This document shows, in pieces, positions 21,680 through 49,377 of a stretch of DNA of 64,000 nucleotides. The first letter of the stretch is position 1; each line of letters opens with the position of its first letter. The notes beneath the pieces were generated by a model. The model worked only from the letters and a program-made list of their open reading frames with translations. It did no database searches and was not told the DNA's origin. The DNA comes from Geodermatophilus aquaeductus. GTDB lineage: Bacteria > Actinomycetota > Actinomycetes > Mycobacteriales > Geodermatophilaceae. Position numbers and translations under genes: made by a program. The DNA lies in contig NZ_FXTJ01000001.1 in assembly GCF_900182545.1 (NCBI RefSeq), positions 310,001 to 374,000 of the forward strand, read 5' to 3'.

Positions 21680-22249
21680 CTAATGGCGACCCTCGGAGGC
21701 GAGCAGGGCGGCGACGTCGGCCTCGCCGCTGCGGTAGCGGCGGGCCAGCTCCCCGGCGAGGGCGTCCATCACCTGCTGCACGCCGCGGCGCCGCTCCGAC
21801 AGCGACCCCTCGGCGGCGGCCAGCGCGCGGGCGGCCCGCTCGAGGTCGGCGTCGGGGAGGCCGGCGACGTCGGACAGGTCGACGTCGGGCGTCAGGCCGT
21901 GCACCCAGGACTCGTAGACCTCCGGCGCGGCCGGCTGCACCGTCTGGTGCCGGCCCAGGCCGTGCGCGGGGCCGCGGCCCTTCTCGGAGAGGATCTCCGG
22001 CAGCAGGTCGACCAGGGAGCGCCCGTCGTGCTCGGCCCGGCGCTGCAGCTCGCGGCGGACGATGTCGAGCCGGCCCTGCAGCAGCCGCCGCGTGTAGGAG
22101 AGGTTGACCTCCTCCTGCTCGGCGCGCCGGCGCAGCCCGCGCACCTCGCCCATGGGGCGGGACTGCACGTCCTCGAGGAAGCCGGGGTCGAGCAGCGCGT
22201 CGACGGCCGCACCGCCGGCGGGCGTCGGGGAGGGGCTCACGGAGGTCAC
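21680..22249 (-). CDS. rsiG: RsiG-type c-di-GMP-binding anti-sigma factor
   Basis: This is a 189-residue two-helix protein. The RsiG signature E(X3)S(X2)R(X3)Q(X3)D occurs twice: E47-S51-R54-Q58-D62 and E147-S151-R154-Q158-D162, one in each predicted long helix. In Streptomyces RsiG forms an antiparallel coiled coil that needs c-di-GMP on these motifs to hold the sigma factor WhiG. Both copies are intact here, so the protein probably restrains a WhiG/FliA-type sigma factor encoded elsewhere. The GTG start overlaps the ygfZ stop (GTGA). An alternative start three codons in is GTG 22240. Confidence 0.85.
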   Translation of the reverse strand: MTSVSPSPTPAGGAAVDALLDPGFLEDVQSRPMGEVRGLRRRAEQEEVNLSYTRRLLQGRLDIVRRELQRRAEHDGRSLVDLLPEILSEKGRGPAHGLGRHQTVQPAAPEVYESWVHGLTPDVDLSDVAGLPDADLERAARALAAAEGSLSERRRGVQQVMDALAGELARRYRSGEADVAALLASEGRH

Positions 22250-23352
22250 CGCCCGATGGTGGCAGACCGGACCGCGCGGACCCGGTCGCGGGCCGCCGCC
22301 CGGGTGTCGTCGAGCGCGGCGGGGGCGTCGTCGGGGTCGACGGACGCGCGGGAACCGCCCACGGTGAGCTCGGCGTCGGGGGCCACCGACTGCTTGACCA
22401 GCGCGAGCGCGACGACGCCGAGCTCGTGGTGGCGCACGACGGTGCCGGTGCGGCCGACCTCGCGGGCACCCGAGAGCACCGGTGTGCCGGGGACGGCGAG
22501 GTCCTCGCTGACGCCGTCGAGGTGCAGCAGGACCAGCCGCCGCGGCGGGCGGCCGAGGTTGTGCACCCGCGCCACGGTCTCCTGACCGCGGTAGCAGCCC
22601 TTCTCGAGGTGGACGGCGCTGGTCAGCCACTCCAGCTCGTTGGGGATGGTGCGGTGGTCGGTGTCGACGCCGAGCCGCGGCCGGCGGGCCTCCACGCGCA
22701 GGGCCTCGTAGGCGTCGAGCCCGGCGGGGCCGGCGCCCGCGGCGGTGAGCGCGTCGGCACGGGCGGTGAGGTCGGCACGGGGCACGAGCAGGTCGAACGC
22801 CGTCGCGCCGCCGTCGCCGAGGGCCGGCATCCGGCGCACCCAGCCGCCGTCGGGCAGCGGGGTGACGGCGTACGGCGCGTCGGGCGCGGGCAGCCCGGCG
22901 GCGGCGAGCACCTCCGGCGCGCGCGGGCCCACGAGGGACAGCAGCGCCCAGTCGGCGGTGACCAGCGCGGGCTCGACGCGGAGCATGAACCGCATCCGGT
23001 CGAGGAAGGTCTGCAGCGCCGCGCCCGTGCCGGGCTCGACGTCGGCCCAGGTGGTGCCGCCGAGCTCGGCGAGGACCAGGTGGTGCTCGACGTGGCCGTT
23101 CGGGGAGAGGACCAGCGCCTCGGTGCCGGTGCCGTCGGCCAGCCGCTCGAGGTGCTGGCTGGTCAGGCTGTGCAGCCAGGGGAGCCGGTCGGCACCGGGG
23201 ACGGTGAGGACGTCGCGGTCGCTGCGGTCGACGAGCCCGGCCCCCTCGGCGAGCAGGCGCTGCTCGCGCAGGGGGTCGCCGTGGTGGGCGGCGACGGTCG
23301 TGCCCTCGGCGACGACGGCCCCCGGCCGTTCGGCCAGTGGTGAGGTGGTCAT
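22246..23352 (-). CDS. ygfZ: YgfZ/GcvT-like folate-binding protein
   Basis: The protein has 368 residues. The diagnostic YgfZ motif K-G-C-Y-x-G-Q-E is present as LEKGCYRGQETVARVHNLGR. YgfZ/IBA57 proteins use tetrahydrofolate to help assemble or repair certain Fe-S enzymes. The N-terminal T-protein-like domain has LVDRSDRDVLTVPGADRLPWLHSLTSQ. It lies between fur and rsiG, all leftward. rsiG is coupled to it by GTGA, so RsiG synthesis would follow YgfZ synthesis. The intergenic region to fur carries a 14-bp triplicate repeat. Confidence 0.9.
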   Translation of the reverse strand: MTTSPLAERPGAVVAEGTTVAAHHGDPLREQRLLAEGAGLVDRSDRDVLTVPGADRLPWLHSLTSQHLERLADGTGTEALVLSPNGHVEHHLVLAELGGTTWADVEPGTGAALQTFLDRMRFMLRVEPALVTADWALLSLVGPRAPEVLAAAGLPAPDAPYAVTPLPDGGWVRRMPALGDGGATAFDLLVPRADLTARADALTAAGAGPAGLDAYEALRVEARRPRLGVDTDHRTIPNELEWLTSAVHLEKGCYRGQETVARVHNLGRPPRRLVLLHLDGVSEDLAVPGTPVLSGAREVGRTGTVVRHHELGVVALALVKQSVAPDAELTVGGSRASVDPDDAPAALDDTRAAARDRVRAVRSATIGR

Positions 23353-23362
23353 GCGTGCCTCG

Positions 23363-23404
23363 TCATTCCTGCGGTGTCATTCCTGCGGTGTCATTCCTGC
23401 GGTG
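23363..23404. repeat. Three tandem 14-bp copies at the fur stop
   Basis: TCATTCCTGCGGTG is repeated exactly three times. On the minus strand each copy reads CACCGCAGGAATGA. The fur gene ends (T-P-Q-E-stop) in the copy at 23391-23404 and the other two lie between fur and ygfZ. Each copy brings an AGGA and an ATGA, so the expansion also multiplies weak ribosome-binding sequences before ygfZ. Confidence 0.85.
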
Positions 23405-23846
23405 TCCCGGACTCTCGACAGCGGCGGCACGTCCCCGACAGCGCGACGTGCCCCACGTCCAGGGTGAAACCCAGGTCGGCGGCCAGACGTTCCGCGGCCT
23501 CCTCCAGCAGTGCCGGGTCGGCCGAGGAGATCTCCCCGCAGGAGGCGCAGACGACGTGCAGGTGCGGGTGCTCGGAGGCGTGGTAGACCGGCGCGCCCTT
23601 GCCCAGGTGGGTGTGCCAGACCAGGCCGAGGCGCTCGAGCAGCTCCAGGGTGCGGTAGACCGTCGAGGTGTCCGGCGCCGCGCCGCCGGGCCCGGCCTGC
23701 TCCCGCAAGCGCGCGCCGATGGCCTCGGGCGTGGCGTGGTCGAGCTCGGCGACGGCGGCCAGCACCTGCTGGCGCTGCGGCGTCAGCCGCAGGCCGCGGG
23801 CCCGCAGCCGCTCGGCCAGCGGGGCCGGACCGTGCTCGGTCGTCAC
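23391..23846 (-). CDS. Fur family metalloregulator (Zur/FurB-like)
   Basis: This 151-residue protein has the winged helix LRARGLRLTPQRQQVLAAV, with the recognition helix region TSTVYRTLELLERLGLV. The metal region HASEHPHLHVVCASCGEI is followed by CRRC near the C-terminus, giving two CxxC pairs for structural zinc. Two-CxxC Fur proteins in actinobacteria are often zinc regulators (Zur/FurB), but iron or peroxide sensing cannot be excluded. The GTG start is 7 nt after TAGGCT, so the message is leaderless. Confidence 0.88.
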   Translation of the reverse strand: MTTEHGPAPLAERLRARGLRLTPQRQQVLAAVAELDHATPEAIGARLREQAGPGGAAPDTSTVYRTLELLERLGLVWHTHLGKGAPVYHASEHPHLHVVCASCGEISSADPALLEEAAERLAADLGFTLDVGHVALSGTCRRCRESGTPQE

Positions 23847-45040: not shown

Positions 45041-47236
45041 TCAGTCGCAGCTGACCGGGCCGGCGCTCGTGGGAGGCGTGGCGGCGGGCGTGGACTCCGC
45101 GGCCGGCGCCGGCGCGACCGCCGCGGCGGGGGCCGGGGCGGGCACCTGCACCGGCACGACGCCGGTGTAGCCGGGACCCAGGACCAGCTGCACGGTGTCG
45201 CCGATGGCGTCGCTGGGCTGCAGGACCGCACCGGGGACGGCGGCCGCCACGGTGCGCGCCTGCTCGACCACCCCGGGACCGTGCCGGACGACGGTCTGGT
45301 TCACCGTGCCGCGCTCGTTGCCGACCTGCCCCACGGTGAAGCCCTGCTGGCGCAGCAGGTCCCCCACGGTGGAGGCCAGCCCGGCGGTGGCGGTGCCGTT
45401 GAGGACGTCGAGGCCCACCGCGGCCGGGGCGACGGTGAGCGGCTGCGCGGCGGGGCTGGCGGGCGCCTGCTCGGCGCCGGTGTCGAGCGCGGGGCTCTCC
45501 GCGGCCGGGGACGCGGCCGCCGCGGGGTCCGCGACTGGCTCGGTGGCCGCCGCGGCGACGGGGACGGCCAGCTCGGCGGGCACCGAGCTGTCCTCGATGA
45601 CGCCGTCGAACAGCGAGCGGGTGGCCGCGCCGTCGAGCAGCACGACGGCCTGGTCGCTGCCGGCCGGCACGTAGCCGACCTGCGCCACCGGCAGGACGGC
45701 GTGCTGCACGGCGTCGCCGTCGAGGCTCCCGAGCGCCGAGGCCAGCGTGCGCAGGTCACCGAGCGTCGTCTGCTCGTCGACGGTGAGCGCGTCCGCGGCG
45801 CGGGTCAGGAAGCGGGTCAGCTCGTAGGTGTTGGCGAGCGTCCCCACGGTCATGGCCGAGCGCATCGTGGCCGACAGCAGCTGCTCGGTGCGCTCGGCGG
45901 CGGCGACCCCGGTGACGTCGGACCCGGCGTCCCCGGGCGCGAGGTAGCGGCTCGCCTCGGCGCCGGTCAGCTCCGAGGTGCCGGCCGGCAGCGGAGCCGC
46001 GGACGCGGCGTCGGCCGGGCCGGTGGTGGGCAGGCAGAGGCTCACACCGCCGACGGCGTCGACCATCGCGGGCAGCCGGCCGAGGTCGACGGCGAGGTAG
46101 TGGTCGACGCGCAGCCCGGACAGCTGCTGCACCGCGCGCACCATGCACGACGGCCCGCCGGCCAGCAGCGACGACGCGAAGGCCTCGGACACCGGCTCGC
46201 GCAGGGAGCCGTCGTCGGCGCGGCAGCCGGGGGTGTCGACCAGCGCGGTCGGCGGCACGCTGACCAGGACGGCGCGGTCCCCGGCGGCGGCCACGTGGAC
46301 CAGCATCGTGGTCACCGAGGCGGGACCGTCGGTGCCGGGCAGGCCGGTGCCGACGACGAGGTAGGTGGTCGCCCCCTCCTGCAGCTGCGGGGCGATGACC
46401 TCCGGGCCCTCGGGGGCGAGCGCGGTGACGCGGGCGATGCTGCGGTCGACGTAGGCGTACAGCCCGGCGTGGTAGCCGACGACGAGGCCGAGCAGCACGC
46501 CGAGGACGACGGCGGCGCGGACCAGCCGCCGCCGCCCGGGGCTGCGCGGCGGACGCTCGGCCAGCGGGCGCCGGGTGCTGCCGGCGCCGGACATCGCCGG
46601 GCCGTCGAGGCCGGGGATCGGCGGGTGGGCTGGGCGGCCGGGCAGCGGCGGGACGGGACGGGAGTACTGGACGCCGGCGGCCGGGGTGCCCGGCAGCGGC
46701 GGGACCGGCCGCGAGTACTGGACGCCGGACGCGGGGATCCCGGGCAGCGGCGGCACCGGACCCGACCGGTGCACGGCCGGCAGCGGCGGCACCGGGCCGG
46801 ACCGGTGGACGGCCTGCTCGCGGAGCGTCCCGGGCAGCGGCGGGACCGGGCCCGACCGGTGGGCGCCGCCGAGCGGCGGCAGCGGCGGGACCGGGGCGGA
46901 GCGCTGGGCACCGGCGGGGGAGCCAGGGACCGGCGGCAGCCCGCGGCGGGGGCCGGCGGGGTCGTCGCTCACGTCCGGCGTGGCGGGCGCGGCCGGGGAC
47001 CGCCCGGCCGCGGACGCGGCGGGTGACCCCGGCACGGGCGGGAGGGGGCCGCGGTGCGGCGGCAGCGACTCACCGGGCTCGAGGGGGATGGGCACCTCGC
47101 CGGTGCGCCGCGCGGCCCGGCGGCCCGTGGCGCCGCCCTGGCGGGCCAGCAACTGCTCGACGGTCACCGGACCGGGCGCATCGCGGTCGCCGCCCCGCTG
47201 GTCCCGCCCCCGCTCGTCCCCCACCGGTGTCGACAT
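45041..47236 (-). CDS. LytR-CpsA-Psr family protein with Pro-rich N-terminal repeats
   Basis: The protein has 731 residues. Residues 1-240 are cytosolic and Pro-rich with at least six copies of a (H/Y)-R-S-(G)-P-V-P-P-L-P motif. One membrane helix follows (LVRAAVVLGVLLGLVVGYHAG). The LCP catalytic domain spans about 290-500 (TYLVVGTGLPG, MLVHV, GLRVDHYLAVDLGRLPAMVDAVGGVSLCLP), and a C-terminal LytR_C domain contains VGLDVLNGTATAGLASTVGDLL. LCP enzymes attach glycopolymers to peptidoglycan. Rv0822c lies in the same place after the pst and phoY2 genes in M. tuberculosis. Confidence 0.88.
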   Translation of the reverse strand: MSTPVGDERGRDQRGGDRDAPGPVTVEQLLARQGGATGRRAARRTGEVPIPLEPGESLPPHRGPLPPVPGSPAASAAGRSPAAPATPDVSDDPAGPRRGLPPVPGSPAGAQRSAPVPPLPPLGGAHRSGPVPPLPGTLREQAVHRSGPVPPLPAVHRSGPVPPLPGIPASGVQYSRPVPPLPGTPAAGVQYSRPVPPLPGRPAHPPIPGLDGPAMSGAGSTRRPLAERPPRSPGRRRLVRAAVVLGVLLGLVVGYHAGLYAYVDRSIARVTALAPEGPEVIAPQLQEGATTYLVVGTGLPGTDGPASVTTMLVHVAAAGDRAVLVSVPPTALVDTPGCRADDGSLREPVSEAFASSLLAGGPSCMVRAVQQLSGLRVDHYLAVDLGRLPAMVDAVGGVSLCLPTTGPADAASAAPLPAGTSELTGAEASRYLAPGDAGSDVTGVAAAERTEQLLSATMRSAMTVGTLANTYELTRFLTRAADALTVDEQTTLGDLRTLASALGSLDGDAVQHAVLPVAQVGYVPAGSDQAVVLLDGAATRSLFDGVIEDSSVPAELAVPVAAAATEPVADPAAAASPAAESPALDTGAEQAPASPAAQPLTVAPAAVGLDVLNGTATAGLASTVGDLLRQQGFTVGQVGNERGTVNQTVVRHGPGVVEQARTVAAAVPGAVLQPSDAIGDTVQLVLGPGYTGVVPVQVPAPAPAAAVAPAPAAESTPAATPPTSAGPVSCD
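46600..46960 (-). repeat. Pro-rich coding repeats in the LCP gene
   Basis: DNA units built around GGCAGCGGCGGGACCGG on the plus strand recur at irregular 33-54 bp spacing, encoding the PVPPLPG copies of the LCP N-terminus. Two adjacent units around 46665-46730 are nearly identical over about 50 bp, which indicates recent duplication. Confidence 0.7.
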
Positions 47237-47452
47237 CCCATCGTCGTGGTCCGCGCCGTGCTGTCCGTGTCACGCTGTCCGTGTCGTTGCGCCCCGCAAG
47301 CGGGACAGCACTCAACGATACGGCCGCAAGCCGCCGTCGACCGGTTCCACGCGCCGTGACCCGCCGGGCGGGCGCGTCCCGGAGGCCCCCGTTCGGGCGG
47401 GAACCGGCCGTCCGACCAGGCAGGGCGCCAGGTCCGGACGTAGCGTCGGCGC

Positions 47453-48706
47453 GTGAGGCTCCCGTCGATCCCCGGTCCGTCCGACGTCTTCTCCGCCGTC
47501 GACAGCCTGCGCGAGGGGGTCGCCGAGGCGCTCGCCCTCGTGCCCCGGGTCGCCGCGGCGGTGGGTCGGCTCGAGGGGCTGCTGGACCGCGTCGACGCCG
47601 TGGTGGACCGTGCGGAGGGTCTGGTCGACCGGGTCGACGACGCGGTGACCGCGCTGGACTCCACCCGCGAGCGGGCCGACGGTCTGGTCGCCGGCGCGGG
47701 GTCCACGATCGCGGCGGCCGACCGGGCCATCTCGTCGGTGGGCCAGACCCAGCAGCGGGCCGACGCCGCCATCGGCAACGTCGAGGCCACCCAGCAGCGT
47801 GCCGATGCCGCGATCGGCAACGTCGAGGCCACCCAGCAGCGGGCCGACGCCGCGATCGGCAACGTCGAGGCCACCCAGCAGCGGGCCGACGCCGCGATCG
47901 GGAACGTCGAGGCCACCCAGCGGGCGGCCGACGCCGCGATCGGCAACGTCGAACGGACGCAGCAGAAGGCCGACGCCGCCATCGGCGCCGTCCAGCAGAC
48001 CCAGCAGAAAGCCGACGCCGCCATCGGCGCCGTCCAGCAGACCCAGCAGAAAGCCGACGCCGCCATCGGCGCCGTCCAGCAGACCCAGCAGAAAGCCGAC
48101 GCCGCCATCGGCGCCGTCCAGCAGACCCAGCAGAAAGCCGACGCCGCCATCGGCGCCGTCCAGCAGACCCAGCAGAAAGCCGACGCCGCCATCGGCGCCG
48201 TCCAGCAGACCCAGCAGAAAGCCGACGACGCCATCGGCGCCGTCCAGCAGACCCAGCAGAAAGCCGACGACGCGATCACGGCCGTGGACGCCATCACCGG
48301 GCGGGCAGGTGGCGCGGTGGCGCGGGCCGAGGGCGCGGTCGGCGGGGCCGAGGCGCTCGTCGGGCGGATCGACCCACTGCTGGCCGGGTACGAGGAGCCG
48401 CTGACCCGCCTGGCGCCGTCGGTGCGCCGGCTGGCCGAGACGCTCGAGCCGCACGAGGTCGAGGCGCTGGTCACCCTCGTGGACCGGCTGCCCACCCTGG
48501 TGACCCACCTGGACGAGAGCATGCTGCCGGTGCTGGAGTCCCTCGGTGACGTCGGCACCGACGTGCACGACCTGGTCGACACGATGCAGGACATCCGCGA
48601 GGTGGTGAAGGGCTTCCCGGGCTCGAAGCTGTTCCGCCGGCGCGGCCGGGAGGAGATCGCCGAGGACGGGGACGACGAGGGGGCCCAGGAGCGCACCGGC
48701 TCCTGA
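47453..48706 (+). CDS. Coiled-coil protein with 13 tandem 14-residue repeats
   Basis: In this 417-residue protein, residues 1-100 are helical with DRV/DRA heptads. Residues about 103-281 consist of thirteen 14-residue units, first TQQRADAAIGNVEA (four copies and a variant), then TQQKADAAIGAVQQ (six identical copies) and two Asp variants. Two heptads per unit give an uninterrupted amphipathic helix of about 25 nm or more. The C-terminal 120 residues are also helical and end acidic. No signal peptide or membrane helix is seen. TAGCGT lies 6 nt before the GTG (leaderless). I do not recognise a family; apolipoprotein-, phasin- or scaffold-like roles are possible. Confidence 0.8.
   Translation: MRLPSIPGPSDVFSAVDSLREGVAEALALVPRVAAAVGRLEGLLDRVDAVVDRAEGLVDRVDDAVTALDSTRERADGLVAGAGSTIAAADRAISSVGQTQQRADAAIGNVEATQQRADAAIGNVEATQQRADAAIGNVEATQQRADAAIGNVEATQRAADAAIGNVERTQQKADAAIGAVQQTQQKADAAIGAVQQTQQKADAAIGAVQQTQQKADAAIGAVQQTQQKADAAIGAVQQTQQKADAAIGAVQQTQQKADDAIGAVQQTQQKADDAITAVDAITGRAGGAVARAEGAVGGAEALVGRIDPLLAGYEEPLTRLAPSVRRLAETLEPHEVEALVTLVDRLPTLVTHLDESMLPVLESLGDVGTDVHDLVDTMQDIREVVKGFPGSKLFRRRGREEIAEDGDDEGAQERTGS
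47759..48294 (+). repeat. 42-bp tandem coding repeat array
   Basis: Units are exactly 42 bp. Six consecutive copies (47969-48220) are identical in DNA sequence and the seventh (48221-48262) differs at one base. The five units before (47759-47968) form a related but distinct subfamily. Such identity including third positions points to recent expansion or ongoing homogenisation. Confidence 0.93.
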
Positions 48707-48727: not shown

Positions 48728-49159
48728 TCAGGTCTCGGTCGGGTACCCCAGCGCGCGGGCGACGTCGCCGATCCGCTCGAAGGTCTCGCCCTCGGGCAGC
48801 CGCTGGAGCTCCCCGACGACGGCGTCGGGCGCGCGGTGGTCGAGGGCGGCCTCGACGAGGGCGGGCCCGTCGGCGGGGAAGTCGGCGCGGACCAGCCAGC
48901 GGGCCAGCTCGGCCCGGGCCACCACGGCGTCCTCGGTCATGCCGACCGGCACACCCCCGATCAGCGTGCTGTTCGGGCTCGTCGCGGTGTCCGGCTCGCC
49001 CTCCGCGACCGGCTCGACCTCGCGGAACTCCTCGGACCGCGTGGCGTGGCCGGACTTGAGCATCCCCTGGATCTCGTGCTCGAGTTCCTCGTCGACCCGG
49101 GGGCTGTGCTTGTCACTGCGGGAAGACGCTCCGGCGAAGCGGTCGTCCATCTCGCTCAT
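48728..49159 (-). CDS. DUF2795 domain protein
   Basis: This 143-residue acidic protein has an N-terminal half that is disordered with many charged residues and VDEELEHEIQGMLKSGHATRSEEF. The C-terminal half has two short DUF2795-like units (ELARWLVRADFPADGPALVEAALDHRAPDAVVGELQRLP). Function unknown. It lies 9 bp after the DUF2945 gene and is likely in one operon with it. Confidence 0.82.
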   Translation of the reverse strand: MSEMDDRFAGASSRSDKHSPRVDEELEHEIQGMLKSGHATRSEEFREVEPVAEGEPDTATSPNSTLIGGVPVGMTEDAVVARAELARWLVRADFPADGPALVEAALDHRAPDAVVGELQRLPEGETFERIGDVARALGYPTET

Positions 49160-49167
49160 GGTTCCTC

Positions 49168-49377
49168 CTACTTCCTGTCGAGCGCGGAGGGCTTGTGCAC
49201 CGCCGTGTTGCCGCTCTTGTCGCTCTTGACCTCGTACTGGGGCTCGTCGGAGCTGGCCTTCACCTTCCGACCGCCCGCCTCCGCCTCCTTCGTGATCTTC
49301 TTGGTGACGGTGCCCTCGGCCTTGCTGCCGTGGCTGTTCCAGGTGACGTGGTCACCCTTCGTGAAGTCGTCGGCCAT
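49168..49377 (-). CDS. DUF2945 (HVA1/Tudor-like) small protein
   Basis: This 69-residue basic protein has FTKGDHVTWNSHGSKAEGTVTKKIT and QYEVKSDKSGNTAVHKPSAL, the SH3-like HVA1/TUDOR fold of DUF2945. Similar proteins are common in stress-tolerant actinobacteria; the role is unknown. The ATG follows GGAGG. Confidence 0.88.
   Translation of the reverse strand: MADDFTKGDHVTWNSHGSKAEGTVTKKITKEAEAGGRKVKASSDEPQYEVKSDKSGNTAVHKPSALDRK

Follow-up and report, generated by a model that had tools for sequence, protein, structure and literature searches.

A repeat-variable, predicted coiled-coil protein of Geodermatophilus aquaeductus and the heptad phase between its conserved ends

The M-type proteins of streptococci are coiled coils whose genes contain differing numbers of tandem repeats, and they are secreted and wall-anchored, while FilP, Scy and DivIVA are scaffolds among the cytoplasmic coiled-coil proteins of the actinobacteria. 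Two further systems connect the length of a coil to its seven-residue period. In one study, the cytoplasmic hairpins of chemoreceptors (MCPs) vary in length by whole heptads (PMC5907407), and in another the function of histidine-kinase coiled-coil linkers, YF1 and others, depends on linker length in seven-residue steps (PMC6798134). The gene described here lies in a stretch of 64,000 nucleotides from Geodermatophilus aquaeductus (contig NZ_FXTJ01000001.1, positions 310,001 to 374,000), which is referred to as the window. Literature searches on the gene and on heptad-quantised coil evolution returned work on other proteins and nothing on this family. The gene probably encodes a repeat-variable coiled coil, and the phase rule relating its two ends, which is strong and open to test, is its most interesting feature.

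The gene, its 42-bp array and its surroundings

The gene occupies positions 47453..48706 on the forward strand, starts with GTG and encodes 417 amino acids. Its 42-bp array of 12.7 copies (47744-48277) has a TRF score of 676, compared with 237 for the next-best array in the window, and can be divided into two parts. The younger sub-array (47957..48292, forward strand) consists of eight 42-bp units of the TQQKADAAIGAVQQ type, five of which are identical when the units are read in the register that places Thr first. The original prediction described six identical units and a seventh that differed by one base, and this is confirmed: identity at period 42 is unbroken over 259 bp (47969-48227, equal to 6.17 units), six identical 42-mers exist in a suitable register, and the Thr-first register gives five identical units with the next off by a single base. 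The older sub-array, which the prediction overlooked, holds five 42-bp units (47747..47956, forward strand), of which four are TQQRADAAIGNVEA and neighbours differ by 1-8 bases.

The array units are not chance matches, because their identity extends to the level of the codon. If codon usage is taken from seven genes of the window, the probability that two copies of a unit arising independently agree at every codon is ~0.008. The codon AAA accounts for 7 of 10 Lys codons in the array gene, with one in each of seven units, as opposed to 0 of 32 in the seven window genes. The array is real and recently expanded, in support of the recent tandem copying that had been claimed for it. In three genomes, contigs stop inside or beside the array (L072-L075, L079 and L080), and database entries may under-report the length of the gene, with assemblies breaking at this point. 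Elsewhere in the window, a perfect 14-bp repeat (GTCATTCCTGCGGT, 3.2 copies, 23362-23406) lies ~10 bp upstream of a 368-aa ORF on the reverse strand (22246-23352, a mechanical ORF call).

Expression would proceed from a leaderless promoter, as originally proposed. A -10 box, TAGCGT (47441..47446, forward strand), is located 6 nt before the GTG, and TANNNT begins at -14 to -12 from the start codon in 92 of 96 upstream regions, a set made up of relatives together with the window gene itself. The promoter thus appears to be conserved and leaderless, with the transcript probably starting at the start codon. Outside of the Geodermatophilaceae, a strict TANNNT at -15..-11 was found in 5/32 upstream regions against a background of 3/256 five-base windows, which suggests a leaderless-type motif that is above background, yet not general. 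Some of the other outside upstream regions have a C-for-T variant of TANNNT when inspected by eye.

Based on Pfam, the divergent neighbour is an LCP protein (LytR_cpsA_psr + LytR_C; 45041..47236, reverse strand), and two reverse-strand neighbours on the other side encode a DUF2795 protein (48728..49159) and an Hva1_TUDOR protein (49168..49377). Among 69 named loci, the divergent LCP gene is directly upstream in 45, and a further 19 lie on contigs that stop before or soon after this point; a downstream forward gene, of siderophore-interacting type by eye, is present in 64, and the other five are MAG contigs. Neighbours are mostly fixed in the Geodermatophilaceae, and those of the inspected outside loci differ. 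One outside relative is positioned head to head with ftsE-ftsX-M23 peptidase (L164, 6986-10627). This arrangement was considered as a general partner neighbourhood and rejected, with ftsE close in 3 of 19 relatives (flanks of ~1.5 kb), all from one genus. The presence of LCP beside the gene in one lineage and of ftsEX in another offers a hint of the cell envelope, though not a general one. The divergent LCP gene has tandem repeats of its own at 46637-46892 (TRF periods of 51, 36 and 90), which encode proline-rich units (HRSGPVPPLPG and QYSRPVPPLPG) in the N-terminal tail of the LCP protein.

Predicted structure and family identity

A conserved module is present at each end of the protein. The N-terminal module (aa 1-62; 47453..47638, forward strand) has the pattern RLPSxPGPSDV...ALALVPR...E41, and the C-terminal module (aa 297-405; 48341..48667, forward strand) carries the GFPGSKLFRRRG motif, has predicted helices at 297-330, 333-387 and 393-405, and is constant in length from about aa 317 onward. 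Compared with six relatives, both end modules are under purifying selection; against G046, the N-terminal module has a dN of 0 and a dS of 0.18, and the C-terminal module a dN of 0.022 and a dS of 0.103.

Between the ends, AF2 (51 sequences) predicts a single helix of 246 residues, a putative coiled-coil rod (aa 30-275; 47540..48277, forward strand), and then a low-confidence linker (aa 276-296; 48278..48340, forward strand). The model has a pTM of 0.26, with block pLDDT >90 over residues 91-240 and <70 for 1-70 and 261-310, such that the helix is of low confidence before aa 71 and after aa 260. For a relative of 190 aa, in which the middle is nearly missing, AF2 returned a long helix at 7-111 and further helices at 114-168 and 173-179, also with a pTM of 0.26. 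The continuous heptad pattern expected of a coiled coil is present in the window protein, and the residues at its heptad positions form a canonical wheel (a = I/Q/V, d = A/V/L, e = D/E/Q and g = A/T). The predicted helix and the wheel together support the earlier proposal that the 14-residue unit gives a long regular helix. That proposal also held that the protein has no anchor, which agrees with the absence of a clear membrane segment from the window protein: the highest 19-residue hydropathy is 1.35 (aa 26-44). In 7 of 88 relatives this value is >1.6, hydrophobic enough for membrane contact, and the N-terminal segment could conceivably touch a membrane.

By its sequence, the window protein appears to be a member of an RLPxPGP...LPG..RRRG coiled-coil family that is spread over several actinobacterial families. 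The RLPxPGP/LVPR N-terminal helix with its conserved Glu is present, and the Glu occurs in 26 of the 29 proteins compared. No Pfam or NCBIfam model scored above cut-off for the window protein and the matches were limited to sub-threshold coiled-coil models, among them DUF948 (14.6 bits, gathering threshold 37.2, confined to the C-terminal helices), DUF1664 (14.1 bits, threshold 34.6) and Alanine_zipper (16.3 bits, threshold 23.1) in Pfam, and SMC in NCBIfam (40.6 bits, cut-off 567, coil region only). The same scans returned no MCP signalling domain, no wall anchor and no FilP/Scy/DivIVA-type family for this protein. The claimed absence of a known family, which homology in a profile search was to have refuted, therefore holds for the window protein in that no curated model exceeds its cut-off. 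Precomputed Pfam labels are nevertheless attached to 6 of 109 relatives (DUF948 to four, DUF1664 to one, Mce4_CUP1 to one and Alanine_zipper to none). A Pfam scan of 51 relatives gave 52 families at E <=0.1, with a best E of 1e-6, and DUF948 (YoxC-like, PF06103) matched 37 of the 51 at this threshold.

Searched by sequence, the PDB gave a best E of 8e-4, to designed coiled coils, and by fold it gave no match for one model and a best E of 7.3 for the other, results of little weight for models with a pTM of 0.26. In UniRef, several Micromonospora members are entered as 'Ribulose 1,5-bisphosphate carboxylase large subunit' and others as 'MlaD', 'YoxC' or hypothetical, and the 120 relatives listed for an outside-family query include one argininosuccinate lyase and one methyl-accepting chemotaxis name. 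Enzyme names such as ribulose bisphosphate carboxylase are automatic labels, and neither they nor the chemotaxis name found support in this analysis. The family is widespread and had no curated description in the scans and literature searches performed.

Two functions that have been assigned to long helices elsewhere can be weighed against these results. In the first, the coil would carry a rotation or a change in supercoil from one end to the other, as in chemoreceptors and histidine-kinase linkers, systems in which length likewise counts for less than heptad phase. Studies of these linkers and hairpins report strict heptad quantisation (PMC6798134, PMC5907407), and the window family displays it too (see below). 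However, neither the Pfam and NCBIfam scans nor the best 25 of the 52 families in relatives include a sensor, kinase or receptor-tip domain, the window protein is without a clear membrane segment, and the neighbours vary in the inspected outside loci, all of which make signal transmission unlikely.

In the second, the helix would lie flat on a hydrophobic surface, as part of a lipid- or granule-surface protein of the phasin or apolipoprotein type. The alanine-rich amphipathic helix is consistent with such a role, as is an N-terminal segment that is fairly hydrophobic (mean of 1.35, and >1.6 in the 7 relatives noted above). The periodicity of the middle argues against it: all 81 middles that are 79 aa or longer have their maximum of hydrophobic power at 3.5 residues per turn, far above the power at 3.6-3.67, a difference that is partly automatic for a 14-residue repeat. 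A period of 3.5 points to a left-handed coiled coil and away from an 11/3 surface helix. Additionally, the Pfam and NCBIfam scans of the window protein gave no phasin match, nor did a phasin appear among the best 25 of the 52 families from 51 relatives, and a surface role is very unlikely.

Distribution, length and heptad phase

The gene is present in 102 of 112 Geodermatophilaceae genomes and in 94 of the 96 with a completeness of >=90% and contamination of <=5%. With 8000 candidates scored, 109 database proteins match at E <=0.001, and the named organisms among them are Geodermatophilus, Blastococcus and Klenkia. The scan of named genomes placed its 69 loci in Geodermatophilus, Blastococcus, Modestobacter, Klenkia, Goekera, Trujillonella, a number of unclassified relatives and a single Bacillus record marked 'unverified'. 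The range widens when the C-terminal module is searched as a profile (A3), with matches in 132 of 248 genomes and 34 of 62 genera of the order and, outside the Geodermatophilaceae, in 87 of 202 sampled genomes of the order. In a sample of the phylum, 5 of 296 genomes match, the genome studied here among the five, and two of the five fall outside the order. Most outside members score between E 1e-35 and 1e-22; the window protein scores E 8e-49, a match that is by construction because it is one of the 11 rows of the profile. The outside-family query yielded 394 relatives, and most of the 120 listed are Micromonospora. The original view of the gene as lineage-specific is not supported for a gene found in nearly all good-quality genomes of its family and also in other actinobacterial families; what is lineage-specific is the near-identical array. 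The genome studied here also encodes a 439-aa paralogue (L003, contig C9, 1405-2724) that shares the N motif and the C-terminal module, has other repeats in its middle (DERVxRxLDLL type) and gave no Pfam match.

Both end anchors were recovered on one locus in 96 of the 102 matched genomes, the remainder being three genomes with ends on separate contigs, two in which the contig examined carries the C end only and one further genome. After the removal of 8 of the 96 loci for N runs or a broken frame, 88 family loci could be measured. A constant repeat number, named beforehand as an argument against the original prediction, was looked for, and the middles instead span 30-352 residues in 28 distinct lengths, and four genomes have a near-absent middle of 30-37 residues. 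Of the 88 loci, 35 have at least two identical units in a row and 12 at least three, and by eye many species have a unit sequence of their own. Length differs in 25 of 32 pairs with end domains that are >=90% identical. On a tree of the ends, in which 36 of 84 inner branches are well supported, there are at least 64 length changes and 14 changes of modulo-14 class, and none of modulo-7 class.

These values bear on the earlier suggestion that the protein is a molecular ruler, in which the number of units sets a physical distance in the cell. A long regular helix of ~246 residues is predicted and unit number would alter its length in equal steps, as a ruler demands. Conversely, the relative with ends 98.0% identical to those of the window protein has a middle of 352 residues against 254, a difference of +7 units, and the relative at 95.3% has 170 residues, or -6 units. 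Combined with 28 lengths in 88 loci, at least 64 changes and four genomes in which the middle is nearly gone, this makes the ruler highly improbable.

Outside of the family, the array itself is rare. Of 79 loci examined, 78 were different, and one of these, L296, has two or more identical adjacent 42-bp units. Four outside loci have perfect period-42 runs of 20-41 bases. In L296, which comes from a relative outside the order, perfect identity at lag 42 extends over 179 bases, and array expansion appears to have arisen again there. By eye, the middles of L152, L156 and L255 contain apparently independent ~14-residue repeats with other unit sequences.

Length varies freely, and the register between the ends hardly ever changes. 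The distance from the N to the C anchor equals 2 mod 7 in all 88 in-frame, N-free family loci; in arrayed genomes the copying of 42-bp units keeps this phase partly by itself, and the outside sets are the stronger test. Micromonospora-type proteins have a distance of 2 mod 7 in 120 of 120 cases (values of 37, 44, 51, 65, 79, 93 and 107), where 89 of the 120 share one length and the set therefore represents fewer independent changes. Measured from E41 to P347, the distance is 5 mod 7 in 29 of 29 proteins (9 from the family and 20 from outside, two of the latter of Micromonospora type) over spans of 89-306 residues, the window protein having the span of 306. A profile-based test of 40 further outside loci found that 31 of the 34 with an N anchor obey the rule and six lack the anchor, and with an N score of >=10 the result is 28 of 31; for several of the 40 loci, the N profile can match mid-coil heptads, which are in phase by construction. 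The three exceptions are one divergent type, one protein without the start of the C module and one that is apparently a true exception. A third outside set was drawn from another family of the class, to which one genome outside the order belongs, and here 18 of 19 obey; one gene was already among the proteins measured from E41 to P347, so that 17 of 18 new ones agree. Pooling these three outside sets (20, 34 and 18 proteins), the phase is kept in 68 of the 72 in which both anchors are present and broken in 4, in sequences that are related to one another. When moduli from 3 to 12 were compared for the first two outside sets, 7 alone stood out, with agreement for 51 of the 54 proteins and for 19 of the 22 distinct distances among them. 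From the modulo-7 result, it would seem that selection tolerates almost any number of heptads and hardly ever a shift in phase between the ends.

The least probable of the readings is a passive array, in which neutral slippage acts on a dispensable linker and the heptad phase is a mere by-product of 42-bp copying, for despite the recent identical copies, the rapid change in length and the contigs of some assemblies that end at the array, such copying does not account for a phase rule that holds outside the family, where identical neighbouring units were seen in 1 of 78 loci, and the 14 changes of modulo-14 class on the tree also keep the modulo-7 phase.

Proposed role and comparison with described systems

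The observed combination of conserved ends, a copied middle, a helix pattern and a kept phase is probably best explained by a homo-oligomeric coiled-coil rod, likely cytoplasmic, with ends that are held to one heptad phase and a length that drifts through unit duplication, and which would serve as a spacer or scaffold and not as a ruler. The variable helix would have to pair with another chain, because the C-terminal part is fixed in length and provides no variable partner arm; since the variable arm would then pair between chains, the rod would be homo-oligomeric. In the Geodermatophilaceae, slippage or unequal recombination of the 42-bp (two-heptad) unit would lengthen and shorten the middle, and units are likely made uniform within each species, as the identical and species-specific units suggest. 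Because length varies among near-identical species and phase hardly ever does, the requirement would be for an angle or an uninterrupted seam and not for a distance. The ends would stay rotationally aligned along a single uninterrupted hydrophobic seam, with the distance between them free, and the rod could act as a phase-locked spacer or scaffold that joins two docking sites. The pTM of 0.26 and the low pLDDT at 1-70 and 261-310 weigh against this reading, and the oligomer is a prediction.

A more specific form of the rod can be put forward tentatively, and is possible rather than probable. The proteins may constitute an undescribed actinobacterial family of 'torsion-locked, length-free' coupling rods, with a free length (30-352 residues in one family) and a kept rotational phase. 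For the Geodermatophilaceae, the hypermutable 42-bp array would be the generator of length, and the rod would transmit or enforce an angular alignment between two partners and not a distance.

Whichever form the rod takes, the family separates two properties of coiled coils, length and phase, that are usually confounded. At least 64 changes in length with the phase kept on one tree amount to a natural experiment, and whether the cell needs a distance or only an alignment becomes testable. The analysis also provides a coherent description for an actinobacterial family with some members under unsupported enzyme labels, and a warning that assemblies can break within an array gene.

It should be noted how the window family relates to the described systems. 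The likeness to DUF948 (YoxC-like) is a label on 4 of 109 relatives, and the window protein is below the cut-off (14.6 compared with 37.2 bits). M-type proteins are secreted and wall-anchored. For the window protein the Pfam and NCBIfam scans gave no wall-anchor profile, and with a highest 19-residue hydropathy of 1.35 a signal segment is not evident. Histidine-kinase linkers differ from the window family in that no sensor or kinase domain was found here and the range of lengths is much larger. MCPs possess a conserved signalling region and membrane segments, neither of which was found in the window protein, and their indels are symmetric in two arms, while in the window family the N-side arm alone varies and the C module is fixed from about aa 317. 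The closest counterparts are within the family itself: the Micromonospora-type members have the same N motif, C-terminal helices, LPG..RRRG tail and heptad phase as the window protein, and they bridge their anchors with 37-107 residues, where the window member has 12.7 near-identical units.
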